Origin: a virus
Direction: 5' to 3' (one strand)
DNA length: 52,384 bases
Virus record (IMG/VR): IMGVR_UViG_3300043410_000251
Span: 1 to 52,384 of that record
Each line of letters opens with the position of its first letter. Within the stretch, counting starts at the first letter, position 1. Under the pieces are notes generated by a model that was given only the letters and a program-made list of their open reading frames with translations, was not told the DNA's origin and did no database searches. This document shows, in pieces, positions 8,691 to 20,968 of the stretch. The position numbers and the translations under genes were made by a program.

Positions 8691-8700
8691 TTCTGCAGGA

Positions 8701-8793
8701 ATCGTCTAGGACACGCAGACGTTAAAGCGAAGTGGGATCGGGTGGAAACCCCGAACGATAATAAAAATGCTTTGAAAGACCGCTTTCAGAGCG
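8701..8793 (+). ncRNA. Structured leader RNA candidate before the helicase gene
   Basis: This 122-base gap between tightly packed genes has several stems. ATCGT 8701-8705 can pair with ACGAT 8755-8759. CGTCT 8703-8707 can pair with AGACG 8717-8721 as an alternative. TCGGG 8738-8742 pairs with CCCGA 8750-8754 around loop TGGAAAC. The strongest is 8769-8778 with 8783-8792, ten pairs with one G-U and a four-base ACCG loop. No T-run follows, so it is not a standard terminator. The GTG start of the helicase lies 20 bases beyond the last stem, suggesting a cis-acting leader, a processing site or a small RNA. Confidence 0.45.
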
Positions 8794-8812
8794 ATTACGC
8801 ATCGGAGAAAAC

Positions 8813-10367: not shown

Positions 10368-10395
10368 TTGACAATGTTAAGTTTGTGATTACAAT
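10368..10395 (+). promoter_or_regulatory. Near-consensus sigma-70 promoter
   Basis: TTGACA at 10368-10373 is a perfect -35 box, then 16 bases, then TACAAT at 10390-10395, one mismatch from TATAAT. It lies in the only non-coding gap between the helicase stop and the gene at 10419, whose AAGGAG site follows about 10 bases downstream. It should let host RNA polymerase start a transcript over the 130-aa protein, SSB-like protein, regulator and primase. Confidence 0.75.
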
Positions 10396-10831: not shown

Positions 10832-11713
10832 ATGACTGACGTAACTTTGTTTAAGGGCGGCATCCCCGCTCACTTGAAAAACGCTGAGCTCGATGCAGCA
10901 ACACTTGCCCTGATGGGTAACCAACCTGTTAAGGGACAATCAAACGCTAAGCGTATCTCTATCAAGGGTGGTGTGTGGCGTATGGTGGTGGACGGACAAG
11001 AAGTCGCTACCAACGAAGAGCGTGGCATGAACGTTGTGATCGTAGCTGCTGCGGCCAGTGAGTCACGCAAGTTCTATGCAGGTGCTTACGAAGAAGGTCA
11101 AGGTGCAAAAGCTCCCGACTGCTGGAGCACACTGGGTGACGTGCCTGATCCCCGCGCTAAGTCCCCACAATCAAACCGTTGCATGACCTGCCCACAGAAC
11201 ATTAAAGGTTCTTCTGGCCGTGGCGATGCACGTGCTTGCAAGTTTGAGCGTCGCCTTGCTGTGGTGCTTGAGAATGACCAACGCGGTGAGATCTTCCAGA
11301 TCGTTATCCCATCAAGCAGCTTGTGGAATTCTGACAACGGTAAGCTTGGCATCAAACCTTATGCAGCTTTCTTGGGCAGCCACGGCTTGAACGTGACGCA
11401 AGTTGTGACTGAGATGCGTTTTGATACAGCCGCCTCTGGTCAGAAGATTAACTTCAAGGCGGTTCGTCCTCTCGAGCCAGAAGAGATCGAGTTGATCCGC
11501 AGCTTGGCTAAGCACCCTGATGCCTTGCGTGCTATCGGCTCTACAACTGCCGAGATGGATGGTGCTGTGGCCGCCCCTGCACCTGCTGCCCCTGCCCCTG
11601 CGATTGAAGCACCTAAAGCTGCTGAGCCTGTGAAAGAGCCAGTCAAGCGTGAGAAGCCACAAGCGGCTGCTCCCAAGGATGTTTCGTCTATCTTGGACGA
11701 TTGGGCACAGTAA
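10832..11713 (+). CDS. Putative single-stranded DNA-binding protein
   Basis: A 293-residue protein. The N-terminal 230 residues include beta-rich segments (RISIKGGVWRMVVDG; MNVVIVAAAASESRKFY) and four cysteines C97, C117, C120, C136 (C-x19-C-x2-C-x15-C) that could hold zinc. An Ala/Pro-rich linker (about 235-280) leads to a short acidic tip ending SSILDDWAQ, the architecture used by ssDNA-binding proteins to contact replication partners. Position between the promoter and the primase supports that role. GGAG precedes the ATG. The identity is inferred from architecture and context; the fold is not certain. Confidence 0.6.
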   Translation: MTDVTLFKGGIPAHLKNAELDAATLALMGNQPVKGQSNAKRISIKGGVWRMVVDGQEVATNEERGMNVVIVAAAASESRKFYAGAYEEGQGAKAPDCWSTLGDVPDPRAKSPQSNRCMTCPQNIKGSSGRGDARACKFERRLAVVLENDQRGEIFQIVIPSSSLWNSDNGKLGIKPYAAFLGSHGLNVTQVVTEMRFDTAASGQKINFKAVRPLEPEEIELIRSLAKHPDALRAIGSTTAEMDGAVAAPAPAAPAPAIEAPKAAEPVKEPVKREKPQAAAPKDVSSILDDWAQ

Positions 11714-11720
11714 AAAGTTC

Positions 11721-11813
11721 GGAGTGAGGATGTGCGTCGGGTTAGCGCCGGCGCGTCCCATTAACCGGGAGGACGCTAATTGAACACTGCTTTATGTGAG
11801 CCGTCCTCACTCC
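11721..11813 (+). ncRNA. Structured RNA candidate with a 12-bp closing stem
   Basis: GGAGTGAGGATG at 11721-11732 pairs with CGTCCTCACTCC at 11802-11813 (eleven Watson-Crick pairs and one G-U). Inside, GCGTC 11734-11738 can pair with GACGC 11772-11776, and GGTTA 11740-11744 with TAACC 11762-11766. An alternative stem GCGTCC 11753-11758 with GGACGC 11771-11776 excludes the first. A perfect palindrome GCGCCGGCGC lies at 11745-11754. The region is non-coding between the SSB-like gene and a Cro-like gene, and no T-run follows. It may be a regulatory leader, a processed small RNA or an operator/origin. Confidence 0.6.
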
Positions 11814-12089: not shown

Positions 12090-14912
12090 ATGACCTCAAG
12101 GAATCTCTTTCTCTCCACGGTGCTGCCGACAGAAGGCATCTACTGTGTGGTGGGATTAAAAAAGGGAACCTCGAAGCAGGAATTTGTTGGATCGGTCCCA
12201 GAGCTTACTGAGCTTGTAGGGCATCTAGTTGAACAGGGGTATGACGCATACTTTGGATGCGCCAAGTTCGAGACGGATGAAGCACGGACAACGAAGAACG
12301 CTAAGTGGTTCAAATCATTTTGGCTAGATTTAGACTGTGGAGAAGGAAAGAAATATGAATCTCAAGCGCAAGCGATAACTGCCCTACGTGAGTTCTGCAA
12401 AGACACGGGGCTACCCAAACCAATCATCGTTAACTCAGGCCGAGGCGTACATACATACTGGGCGTTAGAGAATGCGATTGGTTATAACGAATGGAAACCT
12501 GTTGCCGAGTCGTTGAAGAAACTGTGCGTGACGCACAACCTACATGCAGATCCTGTTGTCACTGCGGATGCAGCACGCATCTTGCGAGTACCTGATACCT
12601 TGAACTTCAAGAACGAAGAGTCACCGTATCCAGTTGAAATTATGTCGATGTCGCAGCCGGTGGAGTTTGCGGCATTCAAGGACAAAGTTGGTGTAGACAT
12701 GATGGCCACACTGGCCGCGTCACCCAAGCGTCCGCTTGATGAGACCACATTGGCGTTGCTAGGCAACCGTGTGTCTAAGTTTTCCACCATCATGATCAAG
12801 GGCAAAGAGGGTAAAGGTTGTGCGCAGCTTACTCATATTTACGTCAACCAGAAAACCATTGAGGAACCTCTATGGAGATCCGGTCTTTCTATTGCTCAAT
12901 TCTGTGAAGATCGGGACACGGCGATACACCGCCTTTCAAGTAAGCATGATGGCTACTCACCTGCGGGTACTGAAGAGAAGGCCGCACTTATCAAGGGGCC
13001 ACATACTTGCGCCACGTTTGAAAAGACAAATCCTGTTGGATGTGATGGGTGCCCACACAAAGGCAAGATCTCTTCCCCAATTCAGCTTGGTTCTGAAATC
13101 GCCAAGGCAACTGCTGAAGACAATATTGTCGTTATCAAGAATGAAACTTTGGGGCAAGAGGTCACAGTCGAGATTCCAGAATACCCATTCCCTTACTTCC
13201 GCGGCAGGAACGGCGGTGTCTACCGCAAGGCAAACAAGGGTGATGCCGAAGAGGGCTCGGATGAACCGGCAGAAGATATTCTGGTCTACGAACACGACCT
13301 CTATGTGGTCAAACGATTAGAAGACCCTGAGTTGGGTGAGATGGTGTGGATGCGTCTGCACCTGCCAAGAGATGGCATACGTGAGTTCTCTATTCCTCTG
13401 GCCAGTGTACTGGCTAAGGACAAGTTAAGAGATGTGATCGCGTCTAAGGGCGTGGCGGCATTGAACAAACAGATGGACAGCATCATGGCTTATATGACAC
13501 GTTGGGTAAAGGAATTACAACTTATGACAAATGCAGAGAAGTCCCGCCTCCAGTTTGGTTGGACAGCAGACAATACGTTTGTGGTGGGAGACCGCGAGAT
13601 CAAAGTGGGGGAGACAATTTACAGCCCACCATCTTCATCCACTGCCAATCTGGTGCCAGCCTACGCTAAGAAAGGTGCATTAGAAAACTGGAAGCGTGTG
13701 GCCAACTGGTATGCGCGCCCAGGCATGGAGGCTCGTGCATTCAATCTGTTTGCAGGCTTTGGTACACCGCTCTTGAAGTTCACCAATCTTAAAGGTGTGC
13801 AGATTCACCTGACAGATGATGGCTCAGGCACTGGTAAGACTACGATCCAGATGATGATCAACAGTATCTTTGGTCACCCATCAGAGACCATGATGCTCGA
13901 GCAGGACACGTTCAAATCTAAGATGCACCGCATGGGTACGATCCAGAACATGCCTGCAACGATTGATGAGATCACCAACATGCACAATGATGAAGTCAGT
14001 AACTTGGCTTACATCAGTACACAAGGCCGTGGCCGTAACCGCATGATGTCGCAGTCTAATTCTGAGCGTCTGAACAATACCTCGTGGGCTCTGATCTTGT
14101 GGACCTCTGGTAACCGCAGTGTGCACGATGTGCTGTACAGCATGAAGACTTTTCCCGATGGCGAGTTGGCTCGTGTGGTGGAGATCAATGTGCCCCGCGA
14201 TACAAGCATGACCAAGGAAGAAACCGACGAGCTGTACAACCTGATGTTTGAGAACTACGGCGTAGCAGGCGAAGTCTATATGCAGTATGTGGTGGCTCAC
14301 CTCGATGCCATCAAAGAAAAGATCAAAGAAGTCCAGGCGAAGTTTGATGCCGATGCCGGCTTGACTCAGCGTGAACGCTTTTACTCTGCACTTGCAGCTG
14401 TGGCTGTTGTAGGCGGCATGATCGCTAAGCGCCTTGGCTTGCATGATATTGAGACCGGTTCTGTCTATCAGTGGGCAGTGCAGTACTTCTCTAACACCAA
14501 GTCTGCGGTCAAGCCTACGGCATCCGGCCCTCTAGATCAGATCGGTAGCTACCTCAACGAGTTCAACCAGTCTGTGCTTGTGGTCAAGAGCGAGGTGGAC
14601 AGCCGTACAAACATGGAGCAGGCTCCGATGCAAATGCCGCATAGAGAGCTGCTAGTACGCTACGAGCCTGACACCCATCTGTTGTTCCTGACCACAAAGC
14701 ATTTCCGTGACTGGTGTACAAAGCACCAGACTTCTTACAAGTCAATCAGCGAAGCGTTGGAAAAGGACGGCGTTGCGCAGCTTGGGGTTAAGAAACGTCT
14801 GGCTCGTGGTACAAAGCTGAATACCCCTGCGGTGAACACCATGGTGCTCGATACCCGCAAGATCGATGGCTTTGATATGCAGGAGTTCATGCCAGATGGA
14901 AATAAAGAATGA
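12090..14912 (+). CDS. Primase-helicase: AEP primase fused to P-loop ATPase
   Basis: A 940-residue replication protein. The N-terminal archaeo-eukaryotic primase-type domain has SFWLDLDCG (D80, D82), SGRGVHTYW (H121) and then DPVVTADAARILRVPDT. A cysteine cluster follows at about residues 310-325 (THTCAT-like segment, then GCDGCPHKGK), probably zinc-binding. The ATPase carries Walker A GSGTGKT at 578-584 after the segment FAGFGTPLLKF, with MPATIDEITNM as a likely Walker B and WALILWTSGN as sensor. The architecture fits phage DUF927-type or SF3-like primase-helicases that prime and unwind at the fork. The ribosome site is weak. Confidence 0.85.
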   Translation: MTSRNLFLSTVLPTEGIYCVVGLKKGTSKQEFVGSVPELTELVGHLVEQGYDAYFGCAKFETDEARTTKNAKWFKSFWLDLDCGEGKKYESQAQAITALREFCKDTGLPKPIIVNSGRGVHTYWALENAIGYNEWKPVAESLKKLCVTHNLHADPVVTADAARILRVPDTLNFKNEESPYPVEIMSMSQPVEFAAFKDKVGVDMMATLAASPKRPLDETTLALLGNRVSKFSTIMIKGKEGKGCAQLTHIYVNQKTIEEPLWRSGLSIAQFCEDRDTAIHRLSSKHDGYSPAGTEEKAALIKGPHTCATFEKTNPVGCDGCPHKGKISSPIQLGSEIAKATAEDNIVVIKNETLGQEVTVEIPEYPFPYFRGRNGGVYRKANKGDAEEGSDEPAEDILVYEHDLYVVKRLEDPELGEMVWMRLHLPRDGIREFSIPLASVLAKDKLRDVIASKGVAALNKQMDSIMAYMTRWVKELQLMTNAEKSRLQFGWTADNTFVVGDREIKVGETIYSPPSSSTANLVPAYAKKGALENWKRVANWYARPGMEARAFNLFAGFGTPLLKFTNLKGVQIHLTDDGSGTGKTTIQMMINSIFGHPSETMMLEQDTFKSKMHRMGTIQNMPATIDEITNMHNDEVSNLAYISTQGRGRNRMMSQSNSERLNNTSWALILWTSGNRSVHDVLYSMKTFPDGELARVVEINVPRDTSMTKEETDELYNLMFENYGVAGEVYMQYVVAHLDAIKEKIKEVQAKFDADAGLTQRERFYSALAAVAVVGGMIAKRLGLHDIETGSVYQWAVQYFSNTKSAVKPTASGPLDQIGSYLNEFNQSVLVVKSEVDSRTNMEQAPMQMPHRELLVRYEPDTHLLFLTTKHFRDWCTKHQTSYKSISEALEKDGVAQLGVKKRLARGTKLNTPAVNTMVLDTRKIDGFDMQEFMPDGNKE

Positions 14913-15161: not shown

Positions 15162-15188
15162 GCGCCCCTACCCCGGGGCGCTTTTTTT
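15162..15188 (+). terminator. Rho-independent terminator of the rightward block
   Basis: GCGCCCC 15162-15168 pairs with GGGGCGC 15175-15181 around the loop TACCCC, followed by seven T (15182-15188). It is oriented for rightward transcripts; the opposite side lacks a T-run. The last T belongs to the stop codon of the leftward gene ending at 15188. Confidence 0.92.
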
Positions 15189-18100
15189 CACCGTTCAATA
15201 CCGGCTTTTTCCAACACTAGGTAACCCTTCTTAGCCACCTGATCGTATTGATCCATCAGCTTATTGATTTGAGCTTGACGGGCATCAGGATCCATATCGT
15301 TTTGCGCCTTTAAGTAGTTAACTCGTTTGCGAATCAAGTTCATCTGATTCTGCAAGTTACGCAGGACTGGGGCAGCGGCATACCGTTTTTTGTTTTCCTC
15401 ATCAGCCATGTAAGTCTGGGCTTCTTCTTTTCTGCCCTGGCTCACCAAACGGTTGAATTGGTTAACAACTTCTTGAGATGTATGTGTGATCTCGTAGAAG
15501 TCCGTAGCTGCACTGCTGGTGTTGGGGTTGGTCATGAACGACTTGAAGAACGGCTGCTCTTCAATGTTCTTAGTAGGTGGCACCTTGCCGTTAGCTTCTG
15601 CAATCATCGAGCTTGCTACACCCATGGTGAATGTACCCAACTCAGCAAAGTAAGCTTGTGTCAGATGGTCAATCATTGCGGGTGACAGACCTGCTTTGTC
15701 TAAGCCCATGGCGCTGAGTGCTTTAGCAGCCTCACCTGCGTTAGGACCACGACTTGCAACAGGTAGTGCCTGGTCACTCATACCCTCGATAGGACGGCGT
15801 GAGTAGAACGAGTAGTTTGTTACAGCTTCCAAGATTGGCTTAGCGCCCTGGGGAATAATGATGCCTTCACCAGGCAGGTTATGGCGGATACCGTCAACAA
15901 CCGAGTGCAGGTATTCCTTACCCGTGCTAGTGCCGGACATGTAACGCACGGAAGCTTCTGGCAACGTCTTGAAGAAAAAACCAACTTCAAACGGCACAGG
16001 GACTTTGATGAACGACTTGCCGTCAGTTCCCCATGGGTTAGGCATGAGCCAGTTGTTATCCTTAACGTTGTCGGGCAGCTTTTTGTACTCATCATCGTCT
16101 TGCAGTGACATGGCGTACAGCGTAGAGAGCACCACCATAATAGCGGCTCGGCTCATGAACAAACGTTGAGCCTCTGCCTTTTCTTCTGGGTTCAAACCAT
16201 AACCTGTAGCTGCGCGGTAAAGCGTGTCCATACTGGTGATGGAAGCAGAGAAGAACGGGATCATGTGACGCAAAGCATGCAGAGTCTTAGAGTTACCATG
16301 CACAGAGAAGTTGATAGACTCACGGGCACGGAACGCGCCATAGTCGTTAGCCTCATCCACACTCATACCTTGCTTGAGACCTTGGTCTCTGGCTTTCTTA
16401 AAGATGGCCACGCGGGTTGCAGCATCAGACGCTTCGTGAGCTTGCATAACTTTATGCAGCATCTTATCGAGCACAGTCTGGTTAAGCTTCTGGGTACCGG
16501 CTTGCTTCAAGAACTGATGGATATCAATCGTTGAGTCCACCTGACCGATGACACCACGAGAAGCCAAGAACTTAGCTTCAGCAGAATTATTGGCCAAGAT
16601 CTTTGCGTATTCGGCAACGGCATGGAACGGAGTCACGATGCCAGAGTTAGCCACCATCGTTGCATGCAAGGGGTCACGAATCAACTGCTTGATCCAGTAC
16701 ATTGGGTTGAGCAGTGCAGTAGTACGCAGGACTTGTGTCGTAGCAGACAGGGCCTTGAGCAAAGGACCCATCTCATAGTTCATGATTTGGAACGCGGCCA
16801 GATCGTTGGGGTTGTCCAAGATAACGGACACATAACCGTTTGCATCGGCGTTAGGATCTGTTGGATCGCGATAACGCAGGTTCACATCAGGATCAGTTGG
16901 CTTGGCTGCAATCTTGGCAGCCCCCAAAGCTTTGAGTTGGCCGACAGCAACCTTACGAGTCTGGTTTTGATAAGCAGCAGCGATCATGGAGGCATAGTGC
17001 TTGTCCATGTTCTCCCAGATGTTACGTTGCAACTCACTGCCTGACAAATGCTCGAGTTCACGAACAGTCTTAGTGCCACCAGCTTTGCCTGTGTAGCCTT
17101 CTTGTTTCAAGGGAGCCAGGTCTTCACGAGCCGCATAGAGAGGTACATAAGACTTCATGCTGCGGTAGTAAGCAGCCTGTGCAGGGGACAAGAGCCCTGC
17201 GTTCTCCCACAGATCGATCAGGCTGTTTGTGGTCTTGCCCCAAATGTCAAAGACTTCTTGCATCTCTGGCACGGCTTGCATCTGCTGCTCAGCCCAGTTG
17301 ATATGGGCTTGCGTTACTTGACGCTCACGATTGACATGCAAGTCTTCGCGGTAACGGGCACGAATAGCTTTAGCCTCGTTGACCAACTTCATAACTACAT
17401 TGAGCGGGGCATTAGCTGCCTTGGCTTGCTTAGCTTGCTGAATCTTGCTCTTAGCAACAGCCAGCATTTGTGCGGCTTTGGCACGGCGCTGTGCGTCGAT
17501 CTTTAAGATTTCTTTACCGCGCAGGATACGAGCGACTTCACCCACAAACTCACGGCCTGTCATGCCGGAACCCTGCACCACTGCGTTCTTATCAAGGTTG
17601 TCGGCCACCAACTGCGACCGCGCTAGGTTAGCCGGATCTTGTTGGATGATGATAGTACCGTCGTTGTTAACAACGGGAATTCCTGACTGCAAACCATTTT
17701 TGATCAGGTTGATCACTTGGTTGAACGAGCGGATCAACATGTCTGCGCGAAGCTGACCGTTCTGGAATACAGGCAAACTCTTCAGGGTCTGCGCCAAACC
17801 AGACGTAGGATCCACGGCTGCAATACGGAAGCGTGTCCAGAAGTCGTTATCGTTCCAGTTCTTCTGTACTTTACCCACCACAGTCTTAACTTGCTGAGCA
17901 GTTGTCTGAGGTGCCTGGAGCTTAGTCAGCTTAGGCAACGTATACGGTTGTCCAGGTGCGGGGACATTGACCGGCCCTGCTGTGGCTTGGATCGGACCGC
18001 GGGTAGCGGTACTGCTTTGAATCGGACCCAACGAGGTGTTGAGCAGCTGTTCAGACAAATAAATAACTTGAGACAGAGCAGTCTCTGTTCTGGGTGACAA

Positions 18101-20968
18101 GCCAAGCACTGTGCGGATTGCTTCCACAAACTTAGACATCACACTACGGCGTCCCTTGTAGGGGATAGACTCAAGCACTTCTTGCATGAAGTTACTTGTC
18201 ATGCCGTGAGCAAGCATCTCATGTGGCTGGTTATACCGAGTACCTCTTGCGCCTTGGTTACCCAACGCATTAGAACCTGACAAAACTTTTTCTTCCGAAC
18301 GCGTCAGTGTCTCGCCACGAGCTTTTTTATCCGTCAAGTGCTTAAGAACAAATTTACTAAGCCTAGTCAGTTCAGTTACAAACTTGCCGGCATCTGTCGT
18401 AGGATTGTTCTCCCCATAGATAACCAGCGATGCAGTAACTGCATGGATCGACTCGTGTGTAGTCGTACGGTACTGGGCACCAAAGGGTTGACCTGAACCT
18501 TTACCAGCAACGCTGATATCTATGTACTTACCTCTTGGCTGCACACGACCTAGAACACCTGGATCGTAACCACCAACTTTTAAAATTTCTGCACGGCTAG
18601 TTGGAACAGTAAACTTGAATGTGTAACCAAGCTTTGTTAGTTCTTTTGCGCGGTTGTACAGTGCCTTAGCAATCTGACGGTTGGATTCAGGACCGCTCTG
18701 TGACAAGAACTTCAGCACTTGGCTAAATGTCTTACCTTTAATATCAGACTCGATATCCGCCGCCATCTCTTGACCGTGCTTAGTGAACGCGGCTTTAATT
18801 TCAGCTTCTGATTTGCCTTGTTCCCCAGCCTTGCGGTCAAGGTGGGCTTTCATGACCTTGGCAAAGTTAGTACCTGTGCTACGTCCTGCAGCGACGGATT
18901 TATTCCAAGCGGCTTGCTCTTCTGGGCTCAGTTGATCGTAGTCAGGCTGTGCAGGATCGCGGTGACGGTCCCACTCTACCGCAGGATCTAATGCAATTGG
19001 CTGCGTTCCTGTTCCTGTTGGAGGCGTTCCAGCAGGTACCCCGCCAGGTACCACTCTAGGTCCGACACCTCCTGGAGTTCCTTGGGGGGTTGCCGGAGGT
19101 TGGGGTTGACCAGGAACTCCCACATCAGGTGGAGCTTCTCCGGGTGCATTGGGGGTAGCTGCAGGTGGTTCAGCATTTCCTTCTCCTGGGAAGAGCTCTC
19201 CTTGGGGAGCAGCCATGAATGAACGATTTCTAATACCTTCTTCAATGTCTAACCCTGTTAGTCGTTGATAAGCCGCATCGAGCAATTCTTGCTGAGCGGG
19301 AGAAAGTGCTCTACCTTGACCAAGCTTATTCTGTTGATACAGCTGCTCCATTGCAGCTGCAAGGTCTAGCTCTGGATTAGCAGTGATCAAATTCTGTACA
19401 CGCTCTTCCACGATCTTTGCAGTGGACGAGTTGTTGCCGCGCATCACTTTAGAGGTGCTTGGATCTGCCTTGGCAATATCAATAACTTTGCGCAAGAACC
19501 CACCGATAGTCTCGGGTGCCGGAGCTTTTGGTGTTTGTGCAGGTGTTTGCTCAGGTTGTTGTGGCGCTTGGCCACGGAACAATTCACCTTGGCCGCCCAT
19601 AGGCAGCTCACCCTGTACTTGAGGGGGCAGTTCACCGGCAGGACGATCAGGACCAACCAATTGTTTAGGATCAGCTAATTGACCTTGAGGTACAACACCG
19701 GCCAGATCACGTTCTGGAGTACCCTCTGGTGTGAGCTTAATTGGCGAATATGGACCCACTGGCGCATTAGGATTAGCGGCAACACCGGGAGCCGCAGGGG
19801 CTGCGGGCGGCATAGGCATGCTAGGCGGCATCGCACCTTGGGGTTGTGCAGGTTGCACTACTGGAGGCTGTGCGGGAGGAGCAGGTGGTTGCGTAGGAGG
19901 CAAAAGTGTTCCGGCAGGAACGTTAGGTAAGTTACCACCGCTAATAGCACCGGCACCGCCACCAAGCAACGCACCACCAAGAGCACCAAGACCCGCTGCG
20001 GATCCAACACCCTTCATCAAATCAGTTTCAGGAATTACATCTTTGATGTTGTAATTTTTAGCAAAGGCACCGCCACCTTCTTCGATACCTTCACTCAGTG
20101 CCTCACCGGTAAGACCTTTAACAAAGCCCTGACCAGGCACTCTGCGGCCCATCAATGCACGCTCAATCGACGCCCCACCTAATTTATCGAGTCCTTTAGT
20201 TGCCGCCAAACTAACAGCCGCGGCTTCAATAGCCGCAATACGACCCTTACCTAGGGCCACACCATGAGCTTCTTCTTCGGGCATGCCTTGTGCACGCAAC
20301 TGCTTGTACAACTGCTCATAGGTATCAGAACCAACATCCGTACCTTGCATTACCGCATTACCAGCAACCGCGCCACGGACGCCGTATTTAGACAATGCTT
20401 CTTCAGTAGCATTACGCATGAGCAGCTTAGCGCCACCCTTGGTGAACATACCAAAACCATAACTTCCGATTAAGCTAGGGATCTGCTCAAAGAAGAATGA
20501 AGAAATCAGCGCAGGATCTTTGGCTGTTTCTTTGATGGATGTAATGAACTCATCAGTAAAGCCTTCGGCCTTCTGAATTTTCTCTGCACGTGCTTGTTCC
20601 TTTGCACGGAGAATGGCGCTCTTCTGTGCTTGGCCGTAGTCCTCTAACTGCTTACCATACGCACCAAGAACCGCACCTGGACCCTCTTTAAATAGTCCAG
20701 GGGTTTCGTCAGGAGAAACTTCGGATGCTTCTCTTGGTCTCTCGCCGGTAATTAGACGGCCTAATTGATCTGGAAACTGTGCAGCTTGACCTAAGCCAGA
20801 ACCTAAGCTGGCTAGGATATCTGACCCTGCTTCACCCCACGTGCGCTTTTCTTTAAGCGCAAGGTCAGGGAACTCCTCAAGAACTTTCCTGCGGACTTCC
20901 TCATCGGGGACATCATCAGGAATATCTTTGAGTAGCACCCCATTTGGAAGCCGCAGATTGTATGCCAT
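15188..20968 (-). CDS. Giant polyvalent / DNA-ejection protein with HExxH protease motif
   Basis: At 1926 residues this is the longest gene. The opening LRLPNGVLLKDIPDDVPDEE and the following Gly/Ala-rich amphipathic stretch are typical of internal virion proteins. Residues about 340-700 are a Pro/Gln-rich linker. A zinc-metalloprotease motif HESIH lies at 838-842, with a possible third ligand in PHEMLAHGMTSNF downstream. The C-terminal half contains coiled coils and a region like the LPD38 polyvalent-protein domain (IPFFSASITSMDTLYRAATG). Together with the two preceding genes it forms an ejection-protein trio as in T7 and P22. It probably enters the host with the DNA and may cleave a target there. 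The start ATG at 20968 shares a base with the previous stop. Confidence 0.8.
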   Translation of the reverse strand: MAYNLRLPNGVLLKDIPDDVPDEEVRRKVLEEFPDLALKEKRTWGEAGSDILASLGSGLGQAAQFPDQLGRLITGERPREASEVSPDETPGLFKEGPGAVLGAYGKQLEDYGQAQKSAILRAKEQARAEKIQKAEGFTDEFITSIKETAKDPALISSFFFEQIPSLIGSYGFGMFTKGGAKLLMRNATEEALSKYGVRGAVAGNAVMQGTDVGSDTYEQLYKQLRAQGMPEEEAHGVALGKGRIAAIEAAAVSLAATKGLDKLGGASIERALMGRRVPGQGFVKGLTGEALSEGIEEGGGAFAKNYNIKDVIPETDLMKGVGSAAGLGALGGALLGGGAGAISGGNLPNVPAGTLLPPTQPPAPPAQPPVVQPAQPQGAMPPSMPMPPAAPAAPGVAANPNAPVGPYSPIKLTPEGTPERDLAGVVPQGQLADPKQLVGPDRPAGELPPQVQGELPMGGQGELFRGQAPQQPEQTPAQTPKAPAPETIGGFLRKVIDIAKADPSTSKVMRGNNSSTAKIVEERVQNLITANPELDLAAAMEQLYQQNKLGQGRALSPAQQELLDAAYQRLTGLDIEEGIRNRSFMAAPQGELFPGEGNAEPPAATPNAPGEAPPDVGVPGQPQPPATPQGTPGGVGPRVVPGGVPAGTPPTGTGTQPIALDPAVEWDRHRDPAQPDYDQLSPEEQAAWNKSVAAGRSTGTNFAKVMKAHLDRKAGEQGKSEAEIKAAFTKHGQEMAADIESDIKGKTFSQVLKFLSQSGPESNRQIAKALYNRAKELTKLGYTFKFTVPTSRAEILKVGGYDPGVLGRVQPRGKYIDISVAGKGSGQPFGAQYRTTTHESIHAVTASLVIYGENNPTTDAGKFVTELTRLSKFVLKHLTDKKARGETLTRSEEKVLSGSNALGNQGARGTRYNQPHEMLAHGMTSNFMQEVLESIPYKGRRSVMSKFVEAIRTVLGLSPRTETALSQVIYLSEQLLNTSLGPIQSSTATRGPIQATAGPVNVPAPGQPYTLPKLTKLQAPQTTAQQVKTVVGKVQKNWNDNDFWTRFRIAAVDPTSGLAQTLKSLPVFQNGQLRADMLIRSFNQVINLIKNGLQSGIPVVNNDGTIIIQQDPANLARSQLVADNLDKNAVVQGSGMTGREFVGEVARILRGKEILKIDAQRRAKAAQMLAVAKSKIQQAKQAKAANAPLNVVMKLVNEAKAIRARYREDLHVNRERQVTQAHINWAEQQMQAVPEMQEVFDIWGKTTNSLIDLWENAGLLSPAQAAYYRSMKSYVPLYAAREDLAPLKQEGYTGKAGGTKTVRELEHLSGSELQRNIWENMDKHYASMIAAAYQNQTRKVAVGQLKALGAAKIAAKPTDPDVNLRYRDPTDPNADANGYVSVILDNPNDLAAFQIMNYEMGPLLKALSATTQVLRTTALLNPMYWIKQLIRDPLHATMVANSGIVTPFHAVAEYAKILANNSAEAKFLASRGVIGQVDSTIDIHQFLKQAGTQKLNQTVLDKMLHKVMQAHEASDAATRVAIFKKARDQGLKQGMSVDEANDYGAFRARESINFSVHGNSKTLHALRHMIPFFSASITSMDTLYRAATGYGLNPEEKAEAQRLFMSRAAIMVVLSTLYAMSLQDDDEYKKLPDNVKDNNWLMPNPWGTDGKSFIKVPVPFEVGFFFKTLPEASVRYMSGTSTGKEYLHSVVDGIRHNLPGEGIIIPQGAKPILEAVTNYSFYSRRPIEGMSDQALPVASRGPNAGEAAKALSAMGLDKAGLSPAMIDHLTQAYFAELGTFTMGVASSMIAEANGKVPPTKNIEEQPFFKSFMTNPNTSSAATDFYEITHTSQEVVNQFNRLVSQGRKEEAQTYMADEENKKRYAAAPVLRNLQNQMNLIRKRVNYLKAQNDMDPDARQAQINKLMDQYDQVAKKGYLVLEKAGIER

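Follow-up and report, generated by a model that had tools for sequence, protein, structure and literature searches.

A conserved folded RNA between two replication genes of a lake phage, with copies in many other phages

The element and its surroundings

The window analysed here is the whole 52,384-base IMG/VR virus record of a lake phage. Between two of its replication genes we have found a 93 nt element, which belongs to a family of folded RNAs that we call type D. The main features are listed below; R1 is the covariance model of type D.

10368..10395, plus strand: sigma-70-like promoter (11 of 12 bases agree with the consensus), which probably serves the operon containing the element
10832..11713, plus strand: upstream gene, 293 aa, called SSB-like in the preliminary description; phrog_27714 and phrog_23155 (function unknown)
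11721..11813, plus strand: whole element, an intercistronic copy of the putative type D leader RNA (fold z -3.39; R1 match at 11724-11810)
11721..11732, plus strand: 5' arm of P1, GGAGUGAGGAUG, predicted to pair with 11802-11813 (probability 0.99-1.00)
11734..11740, plus strand: 5' arm of P2, GCGUCGG (predicted probability of the inner five pairs 0.74-0.76; P2 covaries in type D)
11741..11747, plus strand: P2 loop, GUUAGCG, near-invariant
11748..11754, plus strand: 3' arm of P2, CCGGCGC, on the same basis as the 5' arm
11755..11781, plus strand: variable segment, with a local helix (11753-11758/11771-11776) particular to the window copy
11782..11798, plus strand: GAA and P4 hairpin, CAC-UGCUUUAU-GUG (arms 11785-11787 and 11796-11798, loop 11788-11795)
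11802..11813, plus strand: 3' arm of P1, CGUCCUCACUCC, with the same probability as the 5' arm and compensatory changes versus locus L002
11827..12054, plus strand: downstream gene, 75 aa helix-turn-helix (HTH) protein, without a Shine-Dalgarno sequence ahead of its ATG
12090..14912, plus strand: DUF927 primase-helicase, second gene after the element

No Pfam match has been found for the 293 aa upstream protein. Three sigma-70-like sites are found in the region, versus 6.4 expected, so the promoter at 10368..10395 is weak on its own. Farther downstream, the minus strand of 15188-20968 contains a 1926 aa open reading frame, the largest of the phage, which faces the replication genes. A weaker structured stretch (z -2.0) is present at 8691-8812, the junction between the HNH and SNF2 helicase genes; in locus L258 this junction has a type D copy.

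The preliminary description placed the element in non-coding DNA between the SSB-like and HTH genes, which is correct: it begins 7 nt past the stop codon of the first and ends 13 nt ahead of the ATG of the second. The 12 bp closing stem proposed there also stands, with 11721-11732 paired with 11802-11813 and one G-U among the pairs. The predicted folding energy is -42.7 kcal/mol, versus a mean of -29.9 for shuffled sequences, and one of 200 shuffles is equally good. The complement strand also folds better than its shuffles (z -3.81).

Inside this stem, two mutually exclusive helices sharing the strand GGACGC (11771-11776) had been proposed. The helix with GCGUCC (11753-11758) has a probability of 0.53-0.59 in the ensemble and lies outside the fold of the family. 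The helix with GCGUC (11734-11738) has a probability of 0.00 and is absent from the conserved fold. One of the two alternatives is thus unpopulated and the other lies in a segment that varies in the family. We have rejected the idea of competing inner stems: the 12 bp stem encloses the core of the type D fold, not a pair of stems in competition. The P2 hairpin of the window copy (GCGUCGG-GUUAGCG-CCGGCGC, 11734-11754) includes the 10-base palindrome GCGCCGGCGC (11745-11754) of the preliminary description. It is absent from the nearest relative, L002, which reads GCGCCAUCGC at this place. The features conserved in the family, namely the two loops and P4, were absent from that description.

There is no -10 box ahead of P1 in the window copy, so a 5' end at that place would require processing. 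The element is not called as an intrinsic terminator (GC-rich hairpin followed by a T-run).

Type D copies in other phages

Two stretches common to the window and L002 served as search patterns in IMG/VR. Pattern GAACACTGCTTTATGTGAG matched 15 stretches, and GGTTAGCGCC N20-50 GAACACTGC matched 31, two of them chance-like (L251 and L259, which we have treated as chance). L234 is the L002 contig again; all other matches come from other phages and other gene contexts. In the predicted type D fold, the stem P1 closes a domain that contains the hairpin P2 (loop GUUAGCG), a variable segment and the hairpin P4 (loop UGCUUYAU).

R1 was built from 19 phage sequences, with the window and L234 held out. 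Its training alignment omits L239, which has a long insert, and copies identical to L230 or L252. Its sole match in the held-out window lies at 11724-11810 (57.2 bits, E 1.9e-13), and the held-out L234 scores 60.9 bits. R1 also detects second copies, which had been selected by no type D pattern, in L232, L238, L241, L244 and L247. A looser pattern, TTAGCNCC N20-50 CNCTGCTTYATGNG, which frees the ends of the P2 loop and the middle pair of P4, matches at least 120 stretches. From these and other loci we have collected 136 distinct copies, though L389 looks like chance. When 15 whole viral records were chosen among the matches, R1 found 13 of them, with one or two copies in each.

No match of R1 was detected over 369 Gammaproteobacteria genomes, with strict filters and no positive control among those genomes. 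The whole records of Acidovorax phage AP1, ctpbd312 and Pseudomonas phage Rollin have no match to R1 or to R2, the model of the type A family described below (0 of 3 each). No cultured phage carrying type D has been found among the records of these three and HK022. In blastn searches against named phages, the window junction gave nothing useful, and single type D and type A copies gave short chance-like pieces at E up to 10.

A tRNA neighbourhood within 500 nt is present for 5 of 136 type D copies and for none of 121 type A copies. Type D is found behind the primase gene in L231 and L150. At this place L402 (2900-3090; MW202545.1, Manatee Spring) has a similar hairpin array with no type D or type A match, followed by what appears by eye to be a run of tRNA-like sequences.

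Covariation and strand

The predicted helices of type D are supported by compensatory change. In the 19-row alignment, from which the window and L234 are absent, 12 of the 19 pairs are changed on both sides. Its covariation score is 0.465, versus 0.193 in shuffles (reached by 0 of 500), and this score favours P1, as we trimmed the ends of the 19 rows at that stem. The results on the freed P4 pair and on mutual information depend less on these hand-trimmed ends. The middle pair of P4, free in the looser pattern, is AU in 97, CG in 14, GC in 14 and UA in 11 of the 136 distinct copies, and it is never unpaired. The third pair of P2 is standard in 135 of the 136.

A larger alignment, A6, contains 105 matches (102 distinct) from 100 chosen loci and is fitted to R1 itself. 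In its 102 distinct rows, 95.1% of the cells are paired, versus 30-48% when the partners are slid. Fifteen of the 19 pairs are changed on both sides, including all nine modelled P1 pairs. The 13 column pairs with the highest corrected mutual information are all predicted base pairs. The fourteenth corresponds to the ends of the P2 loop, columns 26 and 32, which are either G..G (89) or U..U (8): such co-varying ends are a predicted non-canonical contact. Copies whose P2 loop has non-G ends mostly have a C-G middle pair in P4, which hints at a possible contact between this loop and P4.

Another pattern leaves AGC free in the P2 loop and GC free in the P4 loop. Nevertheless, AGC is found in 126 of 127 distinct copies and GC in all 127. 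The single AGC exception is AGU, which could pair with GCU through a U-G wobble. Retention of AGC and GC is in keeping with a putative docking of the two loops, AGC with GCU, without proving it.

In the cells of A6, G-U pairs outnumber A-C by 133 to 24, so the folded strand is the transcribed strand.

Type A and other folded scaffolds

We have detected a second phage RNA family, type A, which is unrelated to type D. It has a closing stem, AAAGCGGAUGC, a variable hairpin and GCAGCGAGUA; examples are L003:2249-2313, L129:820-900 and more than 110 further loci (L110-L229). The type A pattern matches at least 120 stretches, and each of the first three pairs of its P1 is complementary in 113 of 115. 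The GAA and AGUA beside the stem resemble a sarcin-ricin or bulged-G motif. R2 has no match in the window, so the window element is without a AAAGCGGAUGC...GCAGCGAGUA core. Over 398 Pseudomonadota genomes R2 gives five matches, with 22-30 bits.

R1 was also run on 100 of the 120 type A loci and finds five type D copies there, which no type D pattern had selected. Three of the five have a type A copy at most about 20 nt away (L129, L130 and L151, with L130 and L151 identical in sequence).

Other folds are also present in these loci. A third conserved folded region, AAGGTGTGAGTG ... CCGCACCAGTYAG ... GGGAACTGAC, noticed by eye, is found at a different junction of these phages, about 150 nt ahead of the SNF2-like helicase gene, in L004, L005, L038-L049 and L052. 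In L129 (890-1230), L163, L232, L239 and L253, GTTGG...CCAAC stems form arrays by alternating with a second scaffold, ACGCATGGRGATTG ... CAGTCYCCAGCCGT, which encloses a type D core in L129 and L253. L129 (about 1190-1290), L239 and L247 contain terminator-like hairpins with T-runs, and within the loops of these hairpins there is another folded domain of at least 40 nt.

Placement of the copies

Placement has been analysed for 124 of the 136 type D copies and 113 of the 121 type A copies. The others have an unplaceable P1, are too near a contig end or have duplicate flanks.

Of the 124 type D copies, 44 have a TATAAT-like -10 hexamer whose end lies 5-7 nt ahead of P1, versus 2, 1, 5 and 2 in four control windows, and ten of these 44 also have a perfect TTGACA. 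In such copies the transcript should begin at P1. The first paired base is thus at the predicted transcription start, as judged from the -10 spacing, in 44 of 124 copies, and the window copy is not among them. The same test for type A gives 10 of 113, versus 0, 0, 2 and 1 in the controls.

Other copies follow a stop codon within 20 nt: 34 of 124 type D (13 of them also in the -10 class) and 72 of 113 type A (4 also in the -10 class). The window copy, with 7 nt after the stop and 13 nt to the next ATG, belongs to this class. Neither a promoter at the expected distance nor a near stop codon is found for 59 of 124 type D and 35 of 113 type A; some of these type D copies are second members of arrays, and some are unexplained. 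The next start codon lies at a median of 15-21 nt after P1. T-runs (at least five T in the 8 nt after P1) are found in 12 of 124 type D and 6 of 115 type A copies. Among 116 distinct type A copies, 80 lie between two genes in their own direction and none between two genes in the opposite direction. The few type D cases, 20 in all, include nine between genes in their own direction and one between opposite genes.

Many copies, varied gene contexts and tandem arrays are also what a mobile DNA repeat of the MITE or REP type, without any RNA function, would give. We regard this as very improbable. In type D the ends (P1) vary with compensation and the interior is conserved, which is the reverse of a MITE; G-U is tolerated and A-C is not, and the start is anchored at the promoter.

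Exchange at orthologous junctions

The upstream protein, used as query in IMG/VR, retrieved 25 loci. When an alignment of 12 upstream proteins (that of the window and 11 of the 25) served as query, 80 of 583 rows were kept, some of which overlap the 25 loci. The slot behind the upstream gene is empty in some loci; in others it contains a copy close to that of the window (L002), type A (L003, L005, L029, L038 and L059), a plain GC hairpin or one of several further folds. More large folds, each unlike types D and A, are seen in the SSB-like/HTH slot or behind the SSB-like gene in L017, L020, L023, L066, L083, L102 and L108.

Anchored on the HTH start, 54 distinct junctions are readable; 27 more loci have no recognisable HTH gene. 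In 34 of the 54 the genes overlap or abut (16 nt at most). The HTH starts of L011 and L016 were probably called too early, which concerns one or two of the short junctions. Seven have a short hairpin, four type A, two type D and seven another fold: longer gaps contain a hairpin or a larger fold. No Shine-Dalgarno-like motif precedes the HTH start in any of the 54.

The genes next to type D are diverse: 40 clusters among 79 flanks before it and 41 among 81 after it. PHROG matches of these neighbours include the large and small terminase subunits, DNA primase, HNH and SNF2-type helicase. In 49 pairs of a type D and a type A copy both flanking genes are homologous. These pairs involve 21 type D and 8 type A copies and include the junction of the window and others. 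Judging from the homologous flanking genes, type D is swapped at orthologous junctions for the unrelated type A, or for a plain hairpin at the SSB-like/HTH junction.

The preliminary description also considered that the element might be a replication origin, or a site bound by the adjacent HTH protein as its operator. The palindrome and the HTH neighbour in the window speak for such a site, to which we give almost no credence. The operator is unsupported because copies adjoin terminase, primase, helicase and other genes, and the palindrome is absent from L002. There is no GC-skew turn at the element, and the tolerance of G-U and not A-C is that of an RNA.

The diversity of the genes that follow type D also bears on a leader responsive to a ligand or protein, either a riboswitch or an autoregulatory site, which would control translation of the next gene. 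Near-invariant loops, a 5'-leader position and the distance of the start codon from P1 agree with this suggestion. Nevertheless, the 41 clusters after type D do not form a common downstream pathway, and there is no conserved expression platform, as T-runs after P1 are found in 12 of 124 copies. We consider it an unlikely explanation.

A proposed role for type D

The preliminary description suggested a structured regulatory leader and proposed a search for covariation and conservation in relatives. Both have been found, and the suggestion is now more strongly supported by a large family, deep covariation and copies which start at promoters. Type D is very probably a cis-acting leader or intercistronic module. 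Our main reading is that it acts post-transcriptionally, in cis, as a leader of the gene behind it; we estimate its probability at about 0.6. Type D probably controls the reading or the preservation of phage messages.

The mechanism that we propose has several steps. P1 would close the RNA, so that a new transcript would have a fully base-paired 5' end. Within an operon, type D would separate two cistrons and leave about 20 unpaired nt (7 + 13 in the window) between the stop codon and the start codon that follows. The P2 and P4 loops would probably dock, AGC with GCU, giving a compact body that might be recognised by a factor common to many hosts. The downstream message would have its 5' end shielded against end-dependent decay. 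In the window, translation of the HTH and primase genes would be kept coupled to that of the SSB-like gene; the missing Shine-Dalgarno sequence and the 7 and 13 nt spacings are what one would expect if translation were coupled across a folded spacer.

The transcripts of promoter-type copies include no upstream cistron, so type D must act downstream or on the transcribing polymerase. By analogy with known leaders, we tentatively propose that its main action may be to shield the 5' end from end-dependent decay. Plain shielding needs P1 alone, yet the core is near-invariant. It is therefore likely that type D works through a specific partner or ligand, beyond a base-paired 5' end. The contact might be with RNA polymerase, in the manner of the HK022 putRNA discussed below, with the ribosome or with a ligand.

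A broader possibility, of which we are far from certain, is that phages of freshwater bacteria share a kit of leader RNAs (D, A and others), interchangeable modules which are unrelated in structure. At orthologous junctions one would be swapped for another; they would stand exactly at a transcription start or between a stop codon and the next start codon, and would be strung in arrays. Their cores would dock on a machine conserved among hosts, be it RNA polymerase, the ribosome or the degradosome, and the modules would be plug-in controllers of expression which need no protein. If this is true, such a layer of phage gene control is undescribed so far. In any case, type D is abundant (at least 120 stretches with one strict pattern), deeply covarying and so placed that it could control phage messages with no protein involved. 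Should it bind a machine of the host, it would be a new handle on phage takeover of expression and a portable RNA part. The question raised is which partner binds these promoter-anchored, core-conserved leader RNAs.

Comparison with known systems

We have compared the element with Rfam 15 (4227 models). At gathering scores there is no match in the window. A stretch of 351 nt that includes the element gives, at E up to 10, one chance snoRNA match (11.3 bits) and no ribozyme; ten related loci give, at E up to 5, two snoRNA matches below threshold, where the SSB-like gene ends. Literature searches by topic and by core letters, outside subscription journals and the 2017 survey of 224 motifs, gave no description of type D, and none appears in passages of PMC8040213, PMC2864571, PMC3997798 and PMC9378689. 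Type D is almost certainly a new RNA family. The novelty lies in the family: its broad role as a cis-acting leader is of a known kind.

The lack of any ribozyme match at E up to 10 also argues against a self-cleaving ribozyme, or a specific RNase processing site, which would cut the polycistronic message. A compact conserved core between cistrons would suit such a site, and a cut before P1 would give the same 5' end as in promoter-type copies. In those copies, on the other hand, the transcript starts at P1 and there is nothing to cut. We find this explanation improbable.

The manA and wcaG RNAs of cyanophages are structured, are found in phage leaders and were detected by comparative genomics, according to PMC2864571. 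Unlike type D, they have other gene associations, and the Rfam models of known families have no match here. PMC2864571 also describes the STAXI motif, which is structured, occurs in tandem and can be near genes for single-strand-binding proteins. STAXI differs from type D in being made of repeated pseudoknots, and the window has no Rfam match.

A closer comparison is the putRNA of phage HK022. As described in PMC9378689, it has about 70 nt, paired from A3 to C72; putL lies just behind PL, and putR about 270 nt from the start of its transcript. Like type D, it is a phage cis RNA of similar size, which can directly follow a promoter; its core has tertiary structure, as is proposed for type D. 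Type D might, like putRNA, bind the transcribing RNA polymerase, which would then ignore pauses and terminators. No dedicated phage protein is seen, many copies lie just behind a promoter, and a near-invariant core across many phages would suit a host-conserved partner. We nevertheless doubt this explanation. The putRNA has two stem-loops versus the single closed domain of type D, it is present in few lambdoid phages, and of the two RNAs putRNA is the one known for antitermination. The HK022 record (NC_002166), searched at E up to 1 with L235 as a positive control, contains nothing that matches R1. Many type D copies are inside operons, between closely spaced genes, and a plain hairpin replaces type D at the SSB-like/HTH junction.

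For the post-transcriptional leader that we favour, the known counterparts are the 5'-terminal stem-loops that stabilise bacterial mRNAs, such as those of the ompA leader and the T7 gene 10 leader. Base-paired structures or hairpins at the 5' end impede RppH and RNase E, as stated in PMC3997798. Type D resembles these stem-loops in its 5' end, which is predicted to be base-paired at the transcription start. For them a hairpin is sufficient, whereas type D has a near-invariant two-loop core and is also found inside operons.
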